Shown: in pieces, positions 1,368 through 12,892 of the stretch
How positions within the stretch are numbered: position 1 is the stretch's first letter
Layout: each line of letters begins with the position of its first letter
Origin: a bacterium
GTDB lineage: Bacteria; Vulcanimicrobiota; JABDET01
DNA: 64,000 nucleotides
NCBI GenBank assembly: GCA_021817145.1
Contig: JAKAVV010000004.1
Span: forward strand, 1 to 64,000
Direction: 5' to 3'
Notes under the pieces: generated by a model
What the model saw: only the letters and a program-made list of their open reading frames with translations
Database searches by the model: none
What the model was told of the DNA's origin: nothing
Program-made: the position numbers and the translations under genes

Positions 1368-2048
1368 TCAGCGCAGCGCTTCTGCTGACTGTCTGACAAG
1401 GGATAAAACTTCACGGATCAGTTTCTCAATTCCATCTCCAACATCTGATATTCTCTCTCCAAGCATATAAGCCGGCGTGCTGACAATCTTATTCTCTCTG
1501 TCAACAGCAATTTCACGAACAGAATGGCTCTCATGCCTGGCATTCATCTTTCTCAAAGCTTCTGCTGTTTGTTTATCCGTTCCTATGGTTAAAAGAGGTT
1601 TTACAGGCTCCTCTTTAAAAACACAGGCAATCAAGGCAGGGGAAATACAGATTGCTCCAATCGGTTTTTTCAAACGATGCATTTCTCTCAAGAGTCGAGC
1701 TACTTCAGGATGAGGAGCTGCTTGCGGACCCTTAGCTGCAAAATCACATAAATTCTTTGCAGCTCCAAATCCCCCTGGAAGGATCACGGCATCCAATTCA
1801 GAAGCTTTTACATCTTTGATGTTTCTAATTTTACCTCTTGCAATTCTAGCGGATTCAATCAGAACATTTCGAGTTTCTGGCACAGGCTTATTGGTTATGT
1901 GATTCATGACATTCAGATTCATGTCAGGAGCCATACAAATCGCTTCTGCTCCATATTTATCAAGAAAATAGAGAGAAAAAACGGCTTCATGAATTTCTGA
2001 ACCATCCAGATAACCGCAGCCGCTTAAAATAAGCCCTGTTTTTATCAT
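1368..2048 (-). CDS. elbB: ElbB-like glyoxalase / DJ-1-PfpI family protein
   Basis: A 226-residue DJ-1/PfpI superfamily protein closely matching the ElbB pattern: N-terminal LILSGCGYLDGSEIHEAV, central AVILPGGFGAAKNLCDFA, and the nucleophile elbow GAICISPALIA with the catalytic Cys. ElbB proteins have glyoxalase activity in vitro and were linked genetically to isoprenoid synthesis; their cellular substrate is unsettled. The start is taken as ATG at 2048, because ElbB proteins begin a few residues before the LSGCG motif; a GTG at 2051 is also possible and overlaps the upstream stop. It directly follows the RES toxin gene and may share its transcript. Confidence 0.88.
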   Translation of the reverse strand: MIKTGLILSGCGYLDGSEIHEAVFSLYFLDKYGAEAICMAPDMNLNVMNHITNKPVPETRNVLIESARIARGKIRNIKDVKASELDAVILPGGFGAAKNLCDFAAKGPQAAPHPEVARLLREMHRLKKPIGAICISPALIACVFKEEPVKPLLTIGTDKQTAEALRKMNARHESHSVREIAVDRENKIVSTPAYMLGERISDVGDGIEKLIREVLSLVRQSAEALR

Positions 2049-2050
2049 CA

Positions 2051-2632
2051 CTATATTACCTGGTAAACTTTTTGCCAGACTTGTTCAGGGGCTCTTCCAA
2101 AAGAAGCGTCTGAAGCTGCCAATGGCTGACACCCAATGTTCACCTTACGAGTAGAAAGCTTTTTTACAAACGAATTTGGACTGAGCCGATCCCAAAAAAC
2201 AGCCAAATTCTTATTTTTCAAGTTAACAGGTGAGTAAAACAAAATCCCCTCAAACCCTCTTTTATAGGCGACTGCTCCAAGACGATGGGTTATTTTATAA
2301 TCTCCTGGAACAGTAAGCGCTTTTTGATCCGCTACCTGCCCTTTTAAAACAACTTTGACAATATCGCTGTCTGTCAAATCTAAAATCTTCCCTAATCTTA
2401 CATGAAAAACCCCTAATACAAGAGGCTTCACTCTTCTTAAATCCCCTCCAACTCGAACCCGCATCTCATCAAAACATCCTTGTTCAGAAGCGCCCAAATA
2501 TAAAGTCCTAAATAAACCTGGTGAATTGAATCTTCCGCCGAAAACCAAAGTGGCTCCTGGCTCACTGATCTCCTCTTTATGGGTTTCCAGTGTTAAACGA
2601 TAAAATGTGCCTTCCTGCACTAAAATATTCAT
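2051..2632 (-). CDS. RES-domain toxin (NAD+-degrading type)
   Basis: A 193-residue protein with the RES fold signature: FYRL near the start, GGRFNSPG at about residues 32-39, then LYLGASEQGC, with the conserved Arg and Tyr of the family. RES toxins such as MbcT and related proteins deplete NAD+ by phosphorolysis or hydrolysis. The start is taken at ATG 2632, where ATGA overlaps the antitoxin stop (2629-2631) and a GGAG lies just upstream; an upstream ATG at 2647 is less likely. The antitoxin-first, toxin-second order matches characterised RES/Xre systems. The pair shares a promoter element with the hydrogenase-related operon (see 2999-3044). Confidence 0.85.
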   Translation of the reverse strand: MNILVQEGTFYRLTLETHKEEISEPGATLVFGGRFNSPGLFRTLYLGASEQGCFDEMRVRVGGDLRRVKPLVLGVFHVRLGKILDLTDSDIVKVVLKGQVADQKALTVPGDYKITHRLGAVAYKRGFEGILFYSPVNLKNKNLAVFWDRLSPNSFVKKLSTRKVNIGCQPLAASDASFGRAPEQVWQKVYQVI

Positions 2633-2991
2633 ACAGGAGCCCCCCATTCAATCATTTCAAGAAGAGAAGAAACTTTTTGAATTCCTTCTTCTTCTTTCAA
2701 CAGCTCTAAAGGAGAACGATCTTCAAATTCGAGACAAGGCTGGTGAAACCACTCCCCTACCCCCTTCTGTGTAAAAATACTGTTCGCTTTATCCATTAAA
2801 ATTTCTGTTTTGCAGCAGAGTTGAGCAAGCGATTTCGAAAACTTTTCTGGGGCTTCAAGGACAGAAACATCAACATTGAAAATTCCTGCTAATTCATTCT
2901 GGCTAATACCCAGGCACTCTTTTATCCTGGAGAGATCCTGGAGCGTCATTTTATGAATCTTGGGAATCGCTTTCCCTTTCTTTTTTGCCAT
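2629..2991 (-). CDS. Xre/MbcA/ParS-type antitoxin of the RES toxin
   Basis: A 120-residue protein with a basic N-terminus, a helix-turn-helix-like middle (DLSRIKECLGISQNELAGIF) and a C-terminal toxin-binding domain of the MbcA/ParS kind: WFHQPCLEFEDRSPLELL, then a Gly-rich end (EWGAPV). In solved complexes the C-terminal tail of such antitoxins plugs the RES active site, and the HTH represses the operon. A start at 2991 would lie only one or two bases from the transcription start predicted from the -10 box at 2999-3004, so the mRNA may be almost leaderless. An internal ATG at 2949 is an alternative start that would drop the basic N-terminus. Confidence 0.85.
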   Translation of the reverse strand: MAKKKGKAIPKIHKMTLQDLSRIKECLGISQNELAGIFNVDVSVLEAPEKFSKSLAQLCCKTEILMDKANSIFTQKGVGEWFHQPCLEFEDRSPLELLKEEEGIQKVSSLLEMIEWGAPV

Positions 2992-2998
2992 CTCTTTT

Positions 2999-3044
2999 AG
3001 TATATCAAGAAAATAAAAAACGCGCTATCAGTCAAACATCTGAT
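2999..3044 (-). promoter_or_regulatory. Activator-type promoter upstream of RES/Xre operon (copy 1 of shared element)
   Basis: On the minus strand, a palindrome ATCAG-N8-CTGAT (3027-3044) is followed after exactly 22 bases by TATACT (2999-3004) and AAAAG. The same 21-bp element lies at the same distance from TATGCTAAAAG at 11058-11103. There is no good -35 box at 17 bases. The palindrome centre would lie near -43, the usual place of an activator that contacts RNA polymerase directly. The regulator is unknown. The element sits between the last gene of the hydrogenase-related operon and the antitoxin gene. Confidence 0.65.
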
Positions 3045-3046
3045 TT

Positions 3047-3814
3047 TCAGCTGTCTCTTTTTTCTTCGAGGCGGCCTAAAAGACGAAGAAGACCATCTAA
3101 AATAGTCAGAGGATGAGGAGGACACCCGGGAATATACAGATCCACAGGAATATCTTTGGGGACTCCATCCTGAGAATCCTCTGCCCCTGCAAAGGGCCCT
3201 CCACTGACAGCGCAGGCTCCAACAGCAATCACAATTTTAGGAGAAGGAACTGCTTCATAAGTTTTACGTAAAGCTGTCTCCATATTATTGGTTACAGGTC
3301 CAGTCACAACAATTCCATCAGCATGGCGAGGGGATGCCACAAATTGAATTCCGAAACGACTTAAATCAAAAATCACATTCCCTGCTGCTGCCAGTTCTGC
3401 TTCGCATCCACTGCAGCCCCCTGCGCATACTTGGCGAAGTTTTAAAGAACGGCCAAAAACCCGCAGCATCTTATCATCCATCTCGGAAGCCAATCTTAAT
3501 TCTTCCCCTGAAACCATTAAATCGTTTCTAGAACGAACTGCCAGCCTGTAATCAGATGTAAAGGCAATCGCTTTATCAGGGCATTTTTCCTGACAGAGAG
3601 GGCAAAACAGGCATGCCCCTAAATCAAGCTTAAGAGGATTAAGAGTAATAGCCTGAGTGGGACAGATATCTCTGCAAGAGGAACACCCCTCCTGACATCG
3701 AGAAGGATCAAGAACAGGCTTCCCTCGAAATCTCTCAGGCAGATGAACTTCTCCTTTGGGAAAGTCAGAGGTTCGATATCCTTGATGCAGACGTGTTTTC
3801 AAAAGATCAAACAT
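3047..3814 (-). CDS. Hydrogenase-related small subunit fused to a 2x[4Fe-4S] ferredoxin domain (HyfH-HyfI-like)
   Basis: A 255-residue fusion. Residues 40-78 carry two 4Fe-4S motifs (C40-x3-C44-x2-C47-x3-C51 and C68-x2-C71-x2-C74-x3-C78), as in HycF/HyfH. The rest is a NuoB/HyfI-type small subunit with CAGGCSGCE at 130-138, then GACAVSGGP and PGCPPHP, so the ligands of the proximal (N2-like) cluster are kept. In group 4 hydrogenases this subunit passes electrons between ferredoxin and the NiFe site. Here it partners a large subunit without NiFe ligands, so it probably transfers electrons to or from another acceptor. It is the last gene of the operon. In E. coli Hyf the two parts are separate genes. 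Confidence 0.9.
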   Translation of the reverse strand: MFDLLKTRLHQGYRTSDFPKGEVHLPERFRGKPVLDPSRCQEGCSSCRDICPTQAITLNPLKLDLGACLFCPLCQEKCPDKAIAFTSDYRLAVRSRNDLMVSGEELRLASEMDDKMLRVFGRSLKLRQVCAGGCSGCEAELAAAGNVIFDLSRFGIQFVASPRHADGIVVTGPVTNNMETALRKTYEAVPSPKIVIAVGACAVSGGPFAGAEDSQDGVPKDIPVDLYIPGCPPHPLTILDGLLRLLGRLEEKRDS

Positions 3815-3823
3815 GCTCCTCCT

Positions 3824-5323
3824 TCATAAATCATGCCCTGCGTACGAAAAATTAAAGCTTTTATTGCACAATGGAAAATCTGAAATCTGACTGCCGCGCA
3901 GCGCAGCAGCAAGCCCAAACCAGTTGTGAAAAGAAGGATCCACAATTTTATACCCCGCGATTTCCCCCTTTGAAGAAGTAACAGCCAGATGAAAAATCTC
4001 CCCTCTCCAGCCTTCTACCATAGAAACAGCTGCATAATCAGATCGACTGGATCGAATCTCTACTTGAAGCGCAGTTTCTGGAAGTCCATTAAGCTGTTCT
4101 CGAAGAAATCTAAGAGAGCGCTGAATTTCAAGCCAGCGGAGCAGAGCGCGAGCCATCACATCCCCTGAATCCACAAAAGCTGCAGGGATCTGAACAAAAC
4201 GAAAAATGCCAAAAGGATGATCCCTTCTCACATCTCTATCACAGCCGCTGGCTCTTGCAGCAGGTCCAACCATTCCTAATGTATCAGCGGTCTCATTCGT
4301 TAAAATCCCTGTTTCTTCAAACCTTGAATAAACAGTTGGAGTGTTAAAGGTAAGATCTGCCGTTTCTTTGAGGTCTTGTTCAATCTTCTCAAGTCGAATT
4401 AAAAAATCTTTTATTTGAGAGGATGAAAAGCCAAATCTCACCCCTCCTGGTCTAATCAGACTTCTTCCAAAGCGATTCCCCGACAACTCCATCAGCATGT
4501 TTAAGAACTCCCCTCGAATCCGGCCAAACCAGGAGGCTCCTGGGAGATATCCCGCATCCCCGCACAGAGCTCCAAGATCTCCTGTATGATTGGCTAACCT
4601 TTCCAATTCAAGGGCAGCGCCTCTAACAAGATGAGCATAAAAAGGTGGATCGCAGTCAGACAAAGCTTCAATCCCCATACAGTACGCAAGGGCATGTCCA
4701 ACAGCAGTGTCCCCTGCGATAGACTCCGCGATCACCAGTCTTCGTTCAGGAGAAGATCTGAGAAAAAGAGATTCAGCCCCTCTGTGCTGATACCCTAATT
4801 GAATTTCCAGATAATGGATCATTTCACCATAACACTGAAAACGAAAGTGCCCTGGCTCAATAATTCCTGCATGAACAGGTCCAACAGCAACTTCATGAAT
4901 TCCTTCCCCTTCCACGCGAAAAAAGGGGTAAGAATCCATTTTTCTGCGTAGAGGTTTAAGCCAGGGATGACCCTCAGGAATAATTCCATGCTCCTCAAAT
5001 AATTCTCTTTCAAAATTTTGGGCTTGAGGCAGATCCAGAGAAAGGGATGGATAAGAATTATTTCCGCCTAAAACAGAAAAGAGCAGCCCAACTTTAGATC
5101 CTGCATCATCCGCAAAAACAGCAAGGATCGTTTTTGCTTCTTTCGTTCTGCTGAACCCAGGGAAAGAACAAAGGGCTGCCAAACGGCTGCCAGAATGAGC
5201 AAGATAAAGACAGTTTTGGCGAAAATCAATTGGAGAATACTGAGGAATTTCTGCCAGTGGAACAGCTTCCCCATTTCTGATCCAGACAGCGCAGGATAAA
5301 AACTCTTGCGAATCTATTTTCAT
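3824..5323 (-). CDS. Hydrogenase-related large subunit (NuoC-NuoD / HyfG-like) lacking NiFe cysteines
   Basis: A 499-residue NuoC-NuoD fusion of the HycE/HyfG kind. Where true NiFe hydrogenases have RxCGxC near the middle, this protein reads E200-S-I-A-G-D-T-A-V-G-H210. Where they have DPCxxC at the end, it reads SDFPLCNKSFNFSYAGHDL (481-499). All but one of the four metal-binding cysteines are therefore missing and no NiFe centre is expected. This matches the 'energy-converting hydrogenase related' (Ehr) complexes described in comparative studies of complex I relatives. There is no C-terminal maturation-protease extension, which fits. No hydrogenase maturation (hyp) genes are visible in the window. 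Its start overlaps the stop of the next upstream gene. Confidence 0.9.
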   Translation of the reverse strand: MKIDSQEFLSCAVWIRNGEAVPLAEIPQYSPIDFRQNCLYLAHSGSRLAALCSFPGFSRTKEAKTILAVFADDAGSKVGLLFSVLGGNNSYPSLSLDLPQAQNFERELFEEHGIIPEGHPWLKPLRRKMDSYPFFRVEGEGIHEVAVGPVHAGIIEPGHFRFQCYGEMIHYLEIQLGYQHRGAESLFLRSSPERRLVIAESIAGDTAVGHALAYCMGIEALSDCDPPFYAHLVRGAALELERLANHTGDLGALCGDAGYLPGASWFGRIRGEFLNMLMELSGNRFGRSLIRPGGVRFGFSSSQIKDFLIRLEKIEQDLKETADLTFNTPTVYSRFEETGILTNETADTLGMVGPAARASGCDRDVRRDHPFGIFRFVQIPAAFVDSGDVMARALLRWLEIQRSLRFLREQLNGLPETALQVEIRSSRSDYAAVSMVEGWRGEIFHLAVTSSKGEIAGYKIVDPSFHNWFGLAAALRGSQISDFPLCNKSFNFSYAGHDL

Positions 5324-6801
5324 CCTTTTCCTCCCAGAATGCTCGATGCCTTTTCCAGGACTTCACGGAAAGGATAAGGCATCCATATCCCTAAAATTAA
5401 AAGCAGGGCAAGGGGGAAGAAAACAATGAGGATATCAAAAATCTTGCTTTTTTCAGAGACCAAAGAATAAGGAGGTTCCCCCCAGGCTGTTGAAAGGGCA
5501 TGTGAAAGGACTCCTACAAATACAATCCCTGCTGCTGCGAGGAAAAAACTCAAAATCAAGATCTGATTGTGATCCACAGCTGTTTTAATGATCAGCATTT
5601 CACTCATAAAAATAGCAAAAGGGGCTGCCCCAACCAGAGCAAGAAAAATTAAAAATAATCCACTCCCCCATACAGGAGCGCGTCGAATTGTCCCCTTCAT
5701 CTTTCTCATATCATGAGTGCCATAAATCTGATCCAATTTCCCCGCTGATAGAAAACCGGTTGTTTTGCAAACCGAGTGATTGAAGATATGAAACAATGCC
5801 GCAAAAATTCCAAGACCTCCAAGCCCTAATCCAATGGCAGTGATCCCGAGATGTTCCACACTAGAATAAGCGAGCAGTCTTTTTATGTCATGCTGAAACA
5901 AAATGAAGACTGCTGCAGTCAGCATGGATATAACTCCAAACAGCAGCAGTAAATGACCAGCAAAATTAAATTGAGCAGCTGCATTCACAATCGGAATATA
6001 GCGCATAATACAGTAAAGAGCAGCATTCAACATAAACCCTGAAAATAAAGCGGAAACAGGGGCAGGAGCCTGGCTGTGAGCATCTGGGAGCCAATTGTGA
6101 AGAGGAGCCAGTCCTGCTTTTGTGCCATATCCCACCAGTAGAAAAACAAAGGCAATCTTCATGGTCAGTGGATTCAATTTTGACGCATTTTGATAAAGAA
6201 CTGTCCACATCAATCCATTCCCATGGAAAATCGAAACACTGCTGGCAGCCGCCCCTACCAGTAAAGTTCCTAAAAAGGCGAGGGCAATTCCAACAGAACA
6301 AAGGAGCACATATTTCCAGGTTGCCTCTAAAGAAGTTTGGGAACGATGAATACAAATAAGAAAAGCGGTAATAAGAGTAGTTGCTTCTATTCCCACCCAC
6401 ATCAACCCCAAATTGTTTGATAATAAAACCAGAGACATAGCCCCTAATGATCCAAACCAGAGGGAACCAAATCGAGCAGCATGACTCTCCTTAAAATCGC
6501 CGCTCTCAATCTCTTTTCCAAAATAGCGGTAAGCAAAGATCGAGGAAAGCGAAAAGACAAGCAGCATAACAAGGATATGATAACCTGACAAAGCATCAAT
6601 TCGAAGCCAGTCATCTGCTGTATGGAGAGGCGATCCTGTAAAAACAGGGTAAATCAAAAATCCCCCTGCCAAATCCTCTGCTAAAACTCCGACAGTAGTA
6701 AAAGCAAGCACAAGTTTTGGTTTGCGCAGAAACAAACACAAAATCGATCCAAGGACAGGAAGCAGAAGAAAAATCCAGAGCAGCAGAGAATCCATTTTCA
6801 T
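5320..6801 (-). CDS. Antiporter-like membrane subunit, NuoN/HyfF-like
   Basis: A 493-residue polytopic membrane protein with about 14 hydrophobic segments. It carries the proton-pumping antiporter signature of complex I subunits: a Lys within GYGTKAGLAPLHNWLPDAHSQA and the following helix HDIKRLLAYSSVEHLGI, with conserved Lys and His. By family knowledge, such subunits move H+ or Na+ coupled to electron transfer in the soluble arm. Length and gene position, between HyfE-like and HyfG-like genes, fit HyfF. Overlaps at both ends with neighbouring genes show strict operon coupling. Confidence 0.9.
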   Translation of the reverse strand: MKMDSLLLWIFLLLPVLGSILCLFLRKPKLVLAFTTVGVLAEDLAGGFLIYPVFTGSPLHTADDWLRIDALSGYHILVMLLVFSLSSIFAYRYFGKEIESGDFKESHAARFGSLWFGSLGAMSLVLLSNNLGLMWVGIEATTLITAFLICIHRSQTSLEATWKYVLLCSVGIALAFLGTLLVGAAASSVSIFHGNGLMWTVLYQNASKLNPLTMKIAFVFLLVGYGTKAGLAPLHNWLPDAHSQAPAPVSALFSGFMLNAALYCIMRYIPIVNAAAQFNFAGHLLLLFGVISMLTAAVFILFQHDIKRLLAYSSVEHLGITAIGLGLGGLGIFAALFHIFNHSVCKTTGFLSAGKLDQIYGTHDMRKMKGTIRRAPVWGSGLFLIFLALVGAAPFAIFMSEMLIIKTAVDHNQILILSFFLAAAGIVFVGVLSHALSTAWGEPPYSLVSEKSKIFDILIVFFPLALLLILGIWMPYPFREVLEKASSILGGKG

Positions 6802-7454
6802 CCTTTTAATTCATCCAAACGGTTCACATCAATGTGATCAAATTGGCGGCTGATGTGATTGATAGCAATCCCCATTACCAGAACACCAACCAGAAGATCC
6901 AGAAGGATCCCCAATTCTACAATAAAAGGAAGCTCTTTAAAAAGGATCTGCCCAAAAATAAAGATTCCATTCTCAAGAATCAAATAACCAACAACCTGTG
7001 TAATCGCTTTTTGTCTGCTAACCAGCAGTAAAAATCCAACCAAAACCCCGACAAAAGCCGCTGGAACAATCAAGGACGCTGGAGGAGACTGTGGAAAAAC
7101 AACAATACTTGCCATCCAGAACGATCCCGCGACAAAAACAGCTGCTGTAAAAAGAGAGAAATGGAGACTGATAGAAGGCTCCACTTCACGACGAACATTT
7201 GCCTCACGGATGGAGCGGAAAATCAAAAATGGAATCAGTAAACTTTTCACGACAAAAGTCCCTGCGCCGATTAAGAGCAAGCCGATCATTTCGCCGCTTG
7301 AAGCCTGTTTCCACCAGAGAGCAAAAGGCAGAAAAGCAAGAGCAGCTCCTTGAAGAGCAGTCGCATTCACACAAGTATCCAATCTACTGGAAGAAACAAT
7401 GTAGAGATCCAGAACAATCACAATCAAAAGGATAAAATTAGCGTCCTGAATCAT
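6798..7454 (-). CDS. HyfE-like membrane subunit
   Basis: A 218-residue membrane protein with about six or seven hydrophobic segments, beginning MIQDANFILLIVIVLDLYIV and ending in a soluble tail. Size and position match HyfE, the subunit in Hyf-type complexes that resembles NuoK in its C-terminal half (VVGYLILENGIFIFGQIL is NuoK-like, with a buried Glu). It likely forms part of the ion path between the NuoH-like and antiporter-like subunits. It overlaps both neighbours by four bases. No hyfD-like gene is present, so the complex has two large antiporter-type subunits rather than three. Confidence 0.88.
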   Translation of the reverse strand: MIQDANFILLIVIVLDLYIVSSSRLDTCVNATALQGAALAFLPFALWWKQASSGEMIGLLLIGAGTFVVKSLLIPFLIFRSIREANVRREVEPSISLHFSLFTAAVFVAGSFWMASIVVFPQSPPASLIVPAAFVGVLVGFLLLVSRQKAITQVVGYLILENGIFIFGQILFKELPFIVELGILLDLLVGVLVMGIAINHISRQFDHIDVNRLDELKG

Positions 7455-8386
7455 GGAGCCCCTTTATAAAAAGAAAGGATCAACCCAAGGACAGCAAGGA
7501 TAGAAGCTCCAATCAAAAACTGGGGAACCCGAGAAAGCCGAATTCTAGCTACTGCGCTCTCAACCAGAGCCACCAAAATCCCCACTCCAAACACACCAAT
7601 GAACAAATAGAATATTCCAAAATACCAATTGGTTGAGGGTAAGGGGAGAAGAAGATGAACTAAAAGAACAGCCTGCAAGAAAAACTTAAGCGAACTCCCA
7701 TAAAGGATAAACGCTAAATCCGGACCCCCATGATCCAGAACCATCACTTCATGAATCATGGTAAGCTCAAGATGAGTATTGGGATCATCTACAGGAATGC
7801 GGGAATTTTCAGCCAACAGCACAGCAAAAAGCGCAAGAGCAGCTACTAAATAAACCGGATGGGCAAATCCCCAGGTTGCCCAGGGAAGAGCATGAAATAC
7901 ATCTTTAAACGTTACACTTTTTGCGTGAATGCAGAGGATCGCCAGGGATAAGAAAAAAGCAGGTTCAGAAAAAGCTGAAAAAGCTGCCCCTCTGCTAGCT
8001 CCCATTCCTTCAAAGCTGGAGCCGGTATCAAGCGCTGAAAGCAGAATAAAAAAATGTCCAAACGCTAAAAGATACGCAAAAAGGATAATATCCCCTTTAA
8101 ACCCTAAAGGGGAGGAAGATAGGGCTAAAGGCAGAATGAAGCCTGCGCAGAAAATACTGGCTAAAGAGATGATTGGACCTGCTGTAAAAATCCACGTTGC
8201 TGTACGACTGTACACTTCCCCCTTTTTTAGAAGTTTCCAAAGATCGAAATAAAACTGAAAAAGAGGAGCCCCTTTTCTGCCTGCTGCCCATGCTTTCATT
8301 TTATTGATAATTCCGATGAAAAGGGGTGGAACAAAAAGAAGGATCGCGATTTGCTCGATTATTTCTAAAATCACCTCAATATCCAC
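7451..8386 (-). CDS. NuoH / HyfC-like membrane subunit
   Basis: A 311-residue protein of the NuoH family with about eight membrane segments. Typical elements are RKGAPLFQFYFDLWKLLKKG after the first helix and the carboxylate-rich loop ENSRIPVDDPNTHLELTMIHE, which in complex I relatives lies at the junction between the redox arm and the membrane arm. It anchors the small and large subunits to the membrane. It overlaps the upstream HyfB-like gene by 11 bases and the HyfE-like gene by four, keeping the classic hyfB-C-E-F-G-I order minus hyfD. Confidence 0.92.
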   Translation of the reverse strand: MDIEVILEIIEQIAILLFVPPLFIGIINKMKAWAAGRKGAPLFQFYFDLWKLLKKGEVYSRTATWIFTAGPIISLASIFCAGFILPLALSSSPLGFKGDIILFAYLLAFGHFFILLSALDTGSSFEGMGASRGAAFSAFSEPAFFLSLAILCIHAKSVTFKDVFHALPWATWGFAHPVYLVAALALFAVLLAENSRIPVDDPNTHLELTMIHEVMVLDHGGPDLAFILYGSSLKFFLQAVLLVHLLLPLPSTNWYFGIFYLFIGVFGVGILVALVESAVARIRLSRVPQFLIGASILAVLGLILSFYKGAP

Positions 8387-10367
8387 CCTTGATAAGAACC
8401 CAAATCAATAAAGCGGCAAAAGTTGCGGCAATATAAAGGAGATAAAGCTGAAGCCGTCCCTGCTGAATGATCCGAAACTGAGAAAGAATTTTCACCACAC
8501 GGCGAATTCCTGGCAGCAGCCATTTTTCAGAAGCAATATCCCCCAGATGTTTTTCATAATGCGCCTTTTCAGGAAAATAACCAAGAGGAGTTTTCTGATG
8601 TTTAATGCGTGAATAGATCAAAGGGGCAAAAGGAGCCAGAACAGGTTCTGCAAAAGAAGCCGCAGTGTACTGCATTCTAGGATTATAAGCAGGATAACCA
8701 CAGCTCCAGGTTTCGCTCTTTTCCACTTTACGATTCCGCAGCAGTCCTCTGCGCAGCAGGTAAAAAAGCCCAATCAAAATAAATAACACTGCCGCGGCAT
8801 AAGTAATCATCAGCAGTGAATTCACAGCAGGTTCTGCTGCAGTAAAACTCCCCCCAAAAAAATCCGCCGCAGGAGCTGTCAGATAAATCATCTCTATCGG
8901 AAAAACTCCAATCACAAAACACAGAACAGCGCCAATGATCATTGGGATCACCATAAAGATATTTGATTCATGGGCATGAGTCGTTTTTTCTGTTCGGGGG
9001 TTCCCCAGAAAAATAATCCCAAAAGCTTTAACAAAACAGGTCACAGCAAGCCCGCCAATTAAAGCCAGGGCAGGCACAATGGCAAGAGCAAATAATCCCC
9101 ATAAGGTTGGAAAATAAAAAGATCCTTGAAAAGCCCCTCTGTAAATCAAATACTCACTGATAAAACCATTGAAAGGGGGCAGCCCGCAAATCGCCGCTGA
9201 TCCAATTAAAAAAGAGGTTCCTGTCATCGGCATAAAGCGATAAAGCCCTCCAAGAGCATCCAAATTCCTTGTTCCTGTGGAATGCTGCACGCTTCCTGCC
9301 CCATGGAATAAAAGCCCTTTAAAAAGCCCGTGATTTAAAACATGAAGAAGGGCTCCAGAATATCCCAAAAAAATAATCATAGGATTGGCAAGGCTTTGAC
9401 CTAAAAGCCCTAATCCAATCCCAAGAGCAATAATACCGATATTTTCAACACTGTGGTAAGCCAGGAGCCTTTTTAGATCATGTTCTGTAAGAGCATGCAG
9501 CACTCCCAGCACCCCTGAAACAATCCCAATTCCGATAATCAATCCACCCCACCAGGAAGGAGGAGTTCCAAAAAACAAAAGAGTGCGAAGAAGACCATAA
9601 ATCCCCATTTTAATCATGACTCCTGACATCACAGCAGAAACAGGGCTTGGAGCAGCTGGATGGGCTTCAGGCAGCCAGATATGAACAGGCCAGAAACCCG
9701 CTTTTGTCCCAAACCCAACAAGCGCCAACAGAAAACAGGTATTTGCCAATCCCGGCATCTTTAAACTTGACATTTGAAAAGTATTAAAATCAAAACTTCC
9801 TGAGACGCGGCTCAAAAGAGTGAATAAAACGAATAAAAACACAACCCCTGCTTGAGAAGCCATTAAATAAAGGACCCCTGCTTTTACTACCTCTTTCCGT
9901 TCATTTTCAAAAGTAACCAGGAAAAAAGAGGAAAGAGACATGATCTCCCAAGCAGCAAGAAATAATATCCCGTTTCTAGCAATCACAACCCCTACCATGG
10001 ATGCCACTAAAAAGCTGAAGAAAAAAACAGGGGATAAAAGCCATTTTTTCCCTTGATAATGGATAAAATATCCCTTTCCATAAAGGGCAGATAATCCGGA
10101 AACCAAAAAAATACACACGAGAAAAAAAGAAGAAAGCGGATCCAGACCAATCGCAATTTTCCCTATAGGTAAAGACCAGGGGATTTTAAGAAAGATTTGT
10201 TCTCCTGATACTAGAGCAAACAAAGAGGCTGAAACTCCAAGAACACAAGCAAACAGATTTCCAAAAGTTCCAATTCCAAGGATCATCCTCTCCCTGTGCC
10301 CCGCAAAAAGCGCTGCCAAAGGGGTGGCGCAGAGAATCATCAAGGAACCTAAAATCGCATAAAGCAT
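8376..10367 (-). CDS. NuoL/HyfB-like antiporter subunit
   Basis: A 663-residue polytopic protein with more than 14 membrane segments. The antiporter core includes FGTKAGFWPVHIWLPEAHPAAP and HDLKRLLAYHSVENIGI, with conserved Lys and His residues, and NHGLFKGLLFHGAGSV follows. A C-terminal extension after residue about 560 has a soluble stretch (KVEKSETWSCGYP) and a final helix, as in HyfB. The role is ion translocation. It is the first membrane gene of the operon and starts one base after the stop of the HTH-EIIA gene, so the two are co-transcribed. Confidence 0.92.
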   Translation of the reverse strand: MLYAILGSLMILCATPLAALFAGHRERMILGIGTFGNLFACVLGVSASLFALVSGEQIFLKIPWSLPIGKIAIGLDPLSSFFLVCIFLVSGLSALYGKGYFIHYQGKKWLLSPVFFFSFLVASMVGVVIARNGILFLAAWEIMSLSSFFLVTFENERKEVVKAGVLYLMASQAGVVFLFVLFTLLSRVSGSFDFNTFQMSSLKMPGLANTCFLLALVGFGTKAGFWPVHIWLPEAHPAAPSPVSAVMSGVMIKMGIYGLLRTLLFFGTPPSWWGGLIIGIGIVSGVLGVLHALTEHDLKRLLAYHSVENIGIIALGIGLGLLGQSLANPMIIFLGYSGALLHVLNHGLFKGLLFHGAGSVQHSTGTRNLDALGGLYRFMPMTGTSFLIGSAAICGLPPFNGFISEYLIYRGAFQGSFYFPTLWGLFALAIVPALALIGGLAVTCFVKAFGIIFLGNPRTEKTTHAHESNIFMVIPMIIGAVLCFVIGVFPIEMIYLTAPAADFFGGSFTAAEPAVNSLLMITYAAAVLFILIGLFYLLRRGLLRNRKVEKSETWSCGYPAYNPRMQYTAASFAEPVLAPFAPLIYSRIKHQKTPLGYFPEKAHYEKHLGDIASEKWLLPGIRRVVKILSQFRIIQQGRLQLYLLYIAATFAALLIWVLIKGGY

Positions 10368-11036
10368 TTATCTGCTCATTTCCATCACAGAAATCCGATC
10401 TAAAATCGCTTCACGCGGAGCCCCCATCAAAACCAAATCTTTCAATAGAGAATCAGACAATAAAATGGTTAAAAAAGCCACGATTTGAAAATGGATGCGC
10501 GTAGATGGGGAGAACAGCAGAAAAAAAACTTGAACAGGAAGAGTGTCAGTCAGGGAAAAATCAATAGGACTTTTAAGGCAGCACAACAGTAAAACAGGCT
10601 CTTCAATTGGAAGCAGAATAGGAAATCGCGGATGAGGAATGGCAATTCCATCTATAAAATGAAGAAAAGGGATTGAACTATCTCTTGTTAAGAGTTGAAT
10701 CAAAAACTCGGGATCCATTTCAGAAGGAATTCCCGAAAACCTTGCAGCAGCTTCTGCCACTTCTTCTTTCACAGCTCCTGGGACCTCATAAAAGATCCCT
10801 CCTCTTTTAAGCGCAGAAGAGATTTTAAGAATTCTTTTTTCCTGTTCATGAAGATTGAACAACTTATCCGATACAGAATAATGATGGAGAACAGCCCATT
10901 CCAGCAAATCAATCCGATTTAACCAGTACTGTTCATGAACACGATAAGCAGAAAGAGAACCTTTTTGAATCCAGCGGTAAAGAAGGTTTTCAGAAACCTT
11001 CAGCAGCTCTGCGGCATCACGAACACTCAAATCCAT
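10368..11036 (-). CDS. HTH (excisionase/MerR-like) plus PTS EIIA-like fusion protein; probable regulator of the Ehr-type operon
   Basis: A 222-residue, two-domain protein. Residues 1-45 form a helix-turn-helix of the excisionase/MerR kind (LSVRDAAELLKVSENLLYRWIQKG). Residues about 85-220 resemble PtsN/fructose-type EIIA and keep the phosphorylatable His in GIAIPHPR (H135). EIIA(Ntr) proteins report PEP and nitrogen status; joined to a DNA-binding domain, the protein could switch transcription with PTS phosphorylation. It is the first gene of the hydrogenase-related operon and is preceded by the shared promoter element at 11058-11103. Control of that promoter by this protein is inference. No PTS transporter genes lie in the window. 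Confidence 0.8.
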   Translation of the reverse strand: MDLSVRDAAELLKVSENLLYRWIQKGSLSAYRVHEQYWLNRIDLLEWAVLHHYSVSDKLFNLHEQEKRILKISSALKRGGIFYEVPGAVKEEVAEAAARFSGIPSEMDPEFLIQLLTRDSSIPFLHFIDGIAIPHPRFPILLPIEEPVLLLCCLKSPIDFSLTDTLPVQVFFLLFSPSTRIHFQIVAFLTILLSDSLLKDLVLMGAPREAILDRISVMEMSR

Positions 11037-11057
11037 AGCTTTTTAAAATCAACTTTT

Positions 11058-11103
11058 AGCATACCATAGAAATTTTATGATGAACATCAGTCAAACATCT
11101 GAT
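11058..11103 (-). promoter_or_regulatory. Activator-type promoter of the Ehr-type operon (copy 2 of shared element)
   Basis: The minus strand shows palindrome ATCAG-N8-CTGAT (11086-11103), a 22-base gap, then TATGCT (11058-11063) followed by AAAAG. Spacing and sequence copy those at 2999-3044; 21 bases including the palindrome are identical. The predicted transcription start lies about 15 bases before the ATG at 11036. The same intergenic space also serves the divergent histidine kinase gene, so a bound regulator could act on both. Confidence 0.65.
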
Positions 11104-11157
11104 TTTTCCATTTGCTTCTTACAAGTTCCAGGAAATTAACGCTGCGACAAAAAAGTT

Positions 11158-12246
11158 ATGGATGTGAAAAGTTTTGTCTCTTGGTTTAAAAAACTGGATA
11201 CAGCCCGAAAAATCTTTCTCGCAAATCTGTTCATCATTCTATTCTGGTGCTCTTTAGTTTTTTTAGGGATGAGAGGACTTCCCTTAACTCATACTCAGTG
11301 GGTTATTCTGGTTCTTTTATTTGCGGTGGGAGCGCTCTGGTTAACCTCCTGGTTTGTAACCATGGCTCTTGCCCCTTTACGTTCCTTATCACACGCAATG
11401 GATCGAGTGGCAAAAGGGGACTTAACCTTTCGGGCATCAAACCATCCTGCTGCAGGACCTCTGGTTAATCTCTGCGTCAGTTCATTGAACCAAATGTTAG
11501 ACGTGCTGGATAAAGAACGACAAAAATCTCGACTGCTTTCTGAACGGCTGATCTTTGCTCAAGAAGAAGAGCGAAGGAGAATTGCCAGGGATCTGCATGA
11601 TGAAACCATGCAGGGATTGACAACCCTTCGCATGCAGATCGAAGAGGTGGAGATCTTAATGGCAGCAGGTCTAACTCCACTTAATCTTAAAGCTTGCAAA
11701 ACAACCCTTTCCAACTTAAAACAAGTGGCTGATCAAGAGCTGAAAGAGCTGAGGCATCTGGTCTTCAATCTCCGCCCGATGCTCTTGGATGATATGGGAT
11801 TAAAACAAGCTCTTCTTTCTCTTTTTAGAGAAGAACTCGGAAAAAATGGAATTCGAACCGATTTCTCCATTGAAGGAACTGAAGTCCAACTTTCTGATGC
11901 AATCGAAGTAGCTCTTTACCGTCTTTCACAAGAGATCATCGCCAATATCCTGAAACACGCAAAAGCCACAAAAGTTTCTGTGAATTTATCGTTTCAGCCC
12001 AATGGAATTAAACTGGTGGTTCAAGACAATGGAATTGGATTTAATGCGGCTGCAGCCAGGATAAACAATCAAGGAATGGGGCTTTTAGGAATGGCTGAAA
12101 GGGCATCTCTTTTGTCAGGAACATTTGAAATTCAATCCTCTCCAAACAGAGGAACAAAAGTGGAGAGCTTTTTTCCTACAGCAGCATTCTCCTCACACAC
12201 TGATCCTCCTGGATCCGATTCTCTAAAGAATAAAATTTATGATTAA
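11158..12246 (+). CDS. DesK/NarX-type membrane sensor histidine kinase
   Basis: A 362-residue kinase. Two membrane helices (about 17-37 and 46-68) enclose almost no periplasmic loop, so the signal is likely sensed in the membrane or cytoplasm. A HAMP domain follows (about 70-120). The HisKA_3 dimerisation domain has the phosphoacceptor His in EEERRRIARDLHDE (about residue 147), and the ATPase domain has an N box (SQEIIANILKHAKA), DNGIGF and GMGLLGMAERA. It overlaps the response regulator by eight bases. It is transcribed divergently from the hydrogenase-related operon, which is a plausible target. Confidence 0.9.
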   Translation: MDVKSFVSWFKKLDTARKIFLANLFIILFWCSLVFLGMRGLPLTHTQWVILVLLFAVGALWLTSWFVTMALAPLRSLSHAMDRVAKGDLTFRASNHPAAGPLVNLCVSSLNQMLDVLDKERQKSRLLSERLIFAQEEERRRIARDLHDETMQGLTTLRMQIEEVEILMAAGLTPLNLKACKTTLSNLKQVADQELKELRHLVFNLRPMLLDDMGLKQALLSLFREELGKNGIRTDFSIEGTEVQLSDAIEVALYRLSQEIIANILKHAKATKVSVNLSFQPNGIKLVVQDNGIGFNAAAARINNQGMGLLGMAERASLLSGTFEIQSSPNRGTKVESFFPTAAFSSHTDPPGSDSLKNKIYD

Positions 12247-12892
12247 ACTCTTACTGGCTGATGATCACACCATTCTGAGAGAAGGGCTTGAAAGCCTTTT
12301 ATCCTTGAACTCCGAACTTTCAGTGATAGGAAAAGCTTCCAATGGGGAAGAAGCCGTCGAGCTGGCAGGAAAACTGAAGCCAGATGTGATTCTCATGGAT
12401 ATCGGAATGCCTGTTCTAAATGGATTGAAAGCCACACGAAAAATCAAAGATCTCTATCCTGAGGTTAAAATTTTAATTCTAACCCAATATGAATCAGAGT
12501 ATTATTTTTTTTCATCCCTGCAGGCGGGAAGTTCGGGATACATCTTAAAAGGAACAAACGTTGCCGAACTTATTTCCGCTGTAACAACAATTCACGAAGG
12601 GCAAATCTATTTTTCCCCTGTATTGACTCAAACCATTTTAAAAAACTTCGTTTTAGGGGACAAACTGACTGCCACTCAAGGAACATTGAGCCCACGAGAG
12701 CTGGAAGTATTGAAGCTGCTGGCAGATGGGTGCTCCAACCAAGAGATTGCGGATCAATTGTTTGTTTCTGTTAAAACTGTCCAGACCCACCGCTATCATC
12801 TCATGGAAAAGCTGAATTTGCACAGCAGAACAGAACTAGTAAAATACGCAATTCGCGAAGGAATCTTAATTTTGGAAGATTCGGAGAGATAA
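12239..12892 (+). CDS. NarL/FixJ-type response regulator
   Basis: A 217-residue protein with an N-terminal receiver domain (acidic DD near residue 9, phosphoacceptor Asp in VILMDIGMP near residue 54, Lys in KGTN near 105) and a C-terminal LuxR-type HTH (LSPRELEVLKLLADGCSNQEIA, then VKTVQTHRYHLMEKLN). It is cotranscribed with the sensor kinase by overlap. LuxR-type regulators bind inverted repeats, often near -40, so it is one candidate for binding the ATCAG-N8-CTGAT element beside it. That link is inference. Confidence 0.92.
   Translation: MIKLLLADDHTILREGLESLLSLNSELSVIGKASNGEEAVELAGKLKPDVILMDIGMPVLNGLKATRKIKDLYPEVKILILTQYESEYYFFSSLQAGSSGYILKGTNVAELISAVTTIHEGQIYFSPVLTQTILKNFVLGDKLTATQGTLSPRELEVLKLLADGCSNQEIADQLFVSVKTVQTHRYHLMEKLNLHSRTELVKYAIREGILILEDSER

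Follow-up and report, generated by a model that had tools for sequence, protein, structure and literature searches.

The window analysed here comprises 64,000 nucleotides (positions 1 to 64,000 of contig JAKAVV010000004.1, assembly GCA_021817145.1) from a bacterium of the GTDB lineage Vulcanimicrobiota; JABDET01, whose genome amounts to 2.66 Mb. On the minus strand, the gene of an HTH_17-EIIA protein is followed by the genes of an Ehr-type respiratory complex and then, in transcription order, by those of an Xre antitoxin, a RES toxin and ElbB (1368-2991); the genes of a histidine kinase and a NarL-type response regulator (11158-12892) lie divergently on the plus strand. The same palindromic element stands before both the Ehr and the Xre-RES operons, and the co-regulation of the two through this common promoter element is well supported by sequence comparison.

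The element, which reads ATCAGTCAAACATCTGATTTT on the plus strand, is present twice as 21 identical bases (3027-3047 and 11086-11106). On the minus strand, both copies give ATCAGATGTTTGACTGAT, then exactly 22 bases, then a -10 hexamer (TATACT at 2999-3004, TATGCT at 11058-11063) and then AAAAG, as an initial annotation of this DNA had described. The two 22-base spacers are unrelated in sequence, except that both end in TGn; the -10 elements are therefore better read as extended (TGATATACT and TGGTATGCT), the constant distance is one of 19 bases from palindrome to TG, and the layout becomes palindrome-N19-TGnTATRCT. The last gene of the Ehr operon (ORF 3047-3814) has one copy immediately behind its stop codon, and the other precedes the HTH-EIIA gene in the same orientation, so that the Ehr operon is bracketed by the two. 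The annotated Xre start codon is only 7 bases from the -10 hexamer (2991-3007), which would leave the Xre transcript without a leader, unless the true translation start lies deeper in the gene.

Comparison with one other genome of the same genus (G001) revealed that the entire gene order is kept, including Xre-RES-ElbB behind Ehr, in a relative whose proteins have diverged to different degrees (81% identity for the response regulator, 55% for HTH-EIIA, 43% for Xre). Three elements are found there, all separated by 22 bases from the hexamer as in the window: HTH-EIIA is preceded by ATCAGGTGTTTTACTGAT-N22-TATGAT, Xre by ATCAGGTGTTTAACCGAT-N22-TAGTCT, which overlaps the end of the final gene of Ehr, and the kinase/regulator operon by ATCAGGTATCTGACTGAT-N22-TACGAT. 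The leader of the Xre ortholog measures about 65 bases in this genome. That both operons retain the element, its spacing and the extended -10 supports two earlier proposals, namely that selection acts on a fixed geometry and that one type of regulator serves both operons. A degenerate search allowing 3 mismatches returned the 5 Ehr-locus places of the two genomes, together with one match inside an ABC permease gene (G000:C36, window genome) which was taken as chance; the reversed-control patterns of this search gave zero matches.

Within the window genome, the bare ATCAG-N8-CTGAT occurs at 8 places against about 3 expected from base composition, which is near background, and the full 18-mer with at most 2 mismatches is found only at the two window places. 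The composite ATCRG-N8-CYGAT-N19-TGnTAnnnT, by contrast, occurs 5 times against about 0.03 expected (a base-composition estimate), and its reversed control 0 times. At zero mismatches, the composite has 10 matches in the two genomes, compared with 1 in 145 other genomes of the phylum, the sole match outside the genus (G034, L083). Since the pattern had been shaped on some of the family sites, a leave-out matrix was built from 12 sites, all outside the Ehr locus. The two window sites scored 28.1 and 26.3 with this matrix, and the next best position in the window reached 10.4; the remaining three sites of the Ehr locus scored 20.7-22.4, and the best position in 1.28 Mb of random sequence reached 19.1. 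Regulon counts were derived from pattern searches rather than from a full-genome matrix scan.

The same type of promoter recurs elsewhere in both genomes. Both possess a paralogous kinase/regulator pair, whose regulator is 57-58% identical to that of the window and whose locus lacks the HTH-EIIA protein. Palindromes resembling ATCGGATCnnGATCCGAT lie on either side of this pair, with the spacing to TGATATAAT and TGATATGCT unchanged, and the promoters face an operon of CopD, thioesterase and CRP-like genes and a gene for hemerythrin; a weaker orthologous pair of sites is located there before a cupredoxin gene. Composite sites also precede the genes of Usp (universal stress protein) and alcohol dehydrogenase (ADH), at an orthologous place in both species, a cytochrome/molybdopterin/Qrc-like operon adjoining MtrB/PioB-type porin and multihaem cytochrome genes, and, in G001, UbiA/cupredoxin. 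The family consensus is about ATCRGnTnTnnrnCYGAT, with two inverted half-sites near ATCRGRTC, and the site alignment features TG in 15 of 16 sites, a fixed N19 and no TTGACA. Most Ehr-locus sites have in common an inner TGTTT that is not seen at other sites and may hint at a preference for the local regulator. At L100:13087-13160, before multihaem cytochrome/porin genes, two family palindromes stand in tandem, 25 bp apart, an arrangement as for cooperative binding. A third paralogous regulator locus (L071:6690-6940, L072:6090-6430) carries a different conserved palindrome, GTCTGAGTwAAAATCAGAC, before its kinase genes, and the N19-TGnTAnnnT geometry is not present there.

Table 1. Coordinates of genes and putative regulatory features at the Ehr/Xre-RES locus
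Feature	Position	Strand	Basis
Putative 18-bp palindromic operator upstream of the Xre-RES-ElbB operon	3027..3044	-	sequence; G001 ortholog L011:14592
Extended -10 TGATATACT of the Xre-RES promoter, 19 bases past the palindrome	2999..3007	-	
Putative 18-bp palindromic operator upstream of the HTH-EIIA/Ehr operon	11086..11103	-	sequence; G001 ortholog L011:6529
Extended -10 TGGTATGCT of the HTH-EIIA/Ehr promoter, 19 bases past the palindrome	11058..11066	-	
HTH_17 + PTS EIIA-2 protein, first gene of the Ehr operon	10368..11036	-	Pfam
Ehr operon: two antiporter-like, NuoH-like, NuoD/C-like, ferredoxin-NuoB fusion, small membrane protein	3047..10367	-	Pfam
Xre/MbcA/ParS-type antitoxin	2629..2991	-	Pfam; NCBIfam below cut-off
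RES-domain toxin	2051..2647	-	Pfam; NCBIfam below cut-off
ElbB glyoxalase, final gene of the toxin operon (same order in G001)	1368..2048	-	NCBIfam; synteny
Membrane histidine kinase (HAMP, HisKA_3, HATPase)	11158..12246	+	Pfam
NarL-subfamily response regulator, preferred candidate binder	12239..12892	+	Pfam

The assignment to Ehr is based on the Pfam families Complex1_49kDa, Proton_antipo_M (twice), NADHdh and Oxidored_q6; inspected by eye, the translation of ORF 3824-5323 has no CxxC at either of the expected NiFe-ligand places (ESIAGDTAVGH; DFPLCNKSF). The HTH_17-EIIA protein also heads Ehr operons in very distant genomes (of the same phylum, Omnitrophota and UBA9160; L022, L023, L032, L034) and looks like a conserved Ehr partner. 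The adjacent toxin and antitoxin genes match PF08808 (5.3e-14) and PF09722 (1.2e-08), both above the gathering score, and fall below the cut-off of the stricter NCBIfam RES and Xre models; together they form a toxin-antitoxin pair predicted to degrade NAD. Three further RES genes are found in the window genome (G000:C37:101395, G000:C14:5507, G000:C21:45999), and G001 has the Ehr-linked one only. Near ElbB, an AbiEii-type nucleotidyltransferase ORF (910-1338) overlaps a small upstream ORF (671-982), possibly as a second toxin-antitoxin pair. In the kinase, no separate sensor domain was found with Pfam, and no heme/GAF sensor was recognised.

The window response regulator is placed in the NarL/FixJ subfamily by its Pfam domains Response_reg (1.3e-25) and GerE (3.3e-23). 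Its closest solved structures are VraR and NarL, with DevR also matched, and the nearest NCBIfam models are MctR, UvrY/GacA and NarL, all below cut-off. Residues D8, D9, D54 and K104, corresponding to the phosphorylation site and acidic pair, are invariant between the two species. The palindrome is probably the binding site of a NarL-subfamily response regulator (that of the window, its paralog, or both), which would activate class-II-like promoters. Three features make the response regulators the best candidate binders: the promoter type accompanies two paralogous kinase/regulator loci, the recognition stretch KTVQTHR is common to both regulators while the third paralog has QTHL, and the DNA-binding domain of the window regulator is 92% identical between species, unlike the whole HTH-EIIA and Xre proteins. 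Among the candidates named by the initial annotation, the NarL-type regulator accordingly fits best, as the promoter type surrounds a paralogous locus devoid of HTH-EIIA and, in G001, heads the kinase/regulator operon itself. The location near -43 anticipated there for an activator is likewise matched: with the -10 hexamer at -12 to -7, the palindrome would occupy about -52 to -35 (centre -43.5), and the aligned sites share a class-II-like layout of a site at fixed distance adjoining -35, an extended -10 and a poor -35, in which a weak TwGC adjoins the palindrome and a conserved TTGACA is absent.

In such a mechanism, a phosphorylated regulator dimer would bind at about -52 to -35 and contact sigma-70 RNA polymerase at promoters with a good extended -10 (TGnTATRMT) and no proper -35. 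The Ehr, Xre-RES-ElbB, hemerythrin, cupredoxin, CopD/CRP-like, Usp/ADH and porin-cytochrome operons would thereby be switched on jointly by the local regulator, by the closely paralogous one encoded at the second kinase/regulator locus, or by both. Protein binding, the identity of the regulator and activation as the direction of control are what we infer from these features. The list of targets suggests a respiratory or low-oxygen stress response, and a low oxygen level or a change in respiration or in redox state is the probable signal. As for the link between Ehr and the toxin proposed by the initial annotation, the common promoter stands, but the link is not private to the two operons, which appear as one branch of a wider respiratory and stress regulon.

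Several observations weigh against control by the response regulators. A search of the window species found no element facing its kinase/regulator genes, and the motif is carried by only two genomes. Two G001 sites (hemerythrin and cytochrome operon) have one extra spacer base, and the geometry is therefore tight but not absolute. Furthermore, the regulon includes the gene of a CRP-like regulator, which is the most serious rival. In this alternative, which we regard as improbable, the palindrome would be recognised in class II fashion by an activator of the CRP/FNR family, for instance the CRP-like protein of the CopD operon at the paralogous locus (L069:1384-2115). In its favour, this protein combines a cNMP-binding with an HTH_Crp_2 domain, the promoter is present at the operon that encodes it, and CRP sites of class II likewise adjoin -35. 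However, the half-site ATCRGRTC with its 2-bp centre is unlike TGTGA-N6-TCACA or TTGAT-N4-ATCAA, class II sites of CRP/FNR are centred at -41.5 instead of -43.5, and the CRP-like gene is absent from the Ehr locus.

Autoregulation by the HTH-EIIA protein, extended to Xre-RES, is very unlikely. Its HTH_17 domain and its place as conserved first gene of distant Ehr operons would suit such a role, but the protein has a single match in the window genome and the promoter type occurs at several loci without it; the element was not found in the distant HTH-EIIA-led Ehr loci searched (L022-L030, L032-L036), and the protein itself is only 55% identical between the two species. It is even harder to credit that the palindrome is an autorepression operator of Xre or Xre-RES copied to Ehr. 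Autorepression of Xre-RES at palindromic operators is known (PMC12204516; for MbcAT, PMC7291234), yet a further Xre-RES operon in the window genome lacks the element, most family sites have no Xre nearby, and the element is kept although Xre is only 43% conserved. Least credible of all is that the copies, direct repeats bracketing the Ehr operon with one directly behind the Ehr stop codon, are no regulator site but a recombination repeat, a terminator or hairpin, or chance. This reading is largely refuted: a diverged species keeps the element, 22 bases from an extended -10, and it recurs at unrelated loci; RNA folding is ordinary (z -0.66 and +0.19), and no terminator-like site was found on the minus strand; and the composite counts are well above background, even with the bare palindrome near it.

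Taken with the response regulators as preferred binders, these promoters suggest common control of energy metabolism and of a toxin that arrests growth. Tentatively, and with odds that we place somewhat below even, one response-regulator module may jointly control the ion-pumping Ehr complex, a porin-cytochrome conduit for electrons and the NAD-depleting Xre-RES pair, which would amount to a respiratory regulon of DosR type in this uncultured lineage. If so, output of the toxin would be programmed by a respiratory sensor rather than left to self-regulation alone, and energy conservation and dormancy would be connected by a wired switch. To our knowledge, the circumstances in which cells use Ehr complexes, and the reasons for doing so, are poorly understood, and a conserved, position-locked promoter module offers a testable hint as to the former. 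It would also provide a clean case of a predicted NAD-depleting toxin-antitoxin pair under a two-component system, and the motif can be used as a tool to list the regulon in this lineage. Where the promoters of Xre-RES systems have been studied, autoregulation is what has been described (PMC12204516, PMC7291234), and a limited, incomplete literature search turned up no account of such a pair being controlled by a response regulator.

Among known toxin-antitoxin systems, the MbcAT operon of Mycobacterium tuberculosis has an extended -10 (TGNTANNNT), is induced by several stresses and is described as autorepressed by MbcA (PMC7291234). It resembles the present operon in its RES toxin, Xre-type antitoxin and extended -10 promoter, and differs in that here a conserved upstream element also heads a respiratory complex. 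In Pseudomonas putida, the palindrome in the Xre-RES promoter region is the autorepression site (PMC12204516); the toxin-antitoxin family and the presence of a palindrome are shared, whereas the palindrome described here is common to operons without Xre. Inverted half-sites, a similar overall length and related regulators link the element to the operators of NarL and UvrY/GacA, from which it departs in half-site sequence and in its fixed position adjoining -35 with an extended -10. The NarL operator has a 7-2-7 structure, and that of GacA/UvrY spans 18 bp. A two-component regulon with class-II-like promoters is of a known kind, and it is the motif and the target set that appear new.

A close parallel is with DevR/DosR of M. 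tuberculosis, a NarL-subfamily regulator with a start-proximal box over -35 at its target promoters (PMC3029386). Similarities extend from the subfamily of the regulator, whose binding here is putative, to the palindromic box overlapping -35 and the stress and redox character of the regulon. The DosR regulon comprises genes for stress and redox functions, including those of universal stress proteins, and its box is TTSGGGACTWWAGTCCCSAA. The consensus found here is different from that box, the window kinase has no recognised heme/GAF sensor domain, and the targets are Ehr, Xre-RES, hemerythrin and porin-cytochrome genes. The system may work like DosR without being a member of the DosR regulon.

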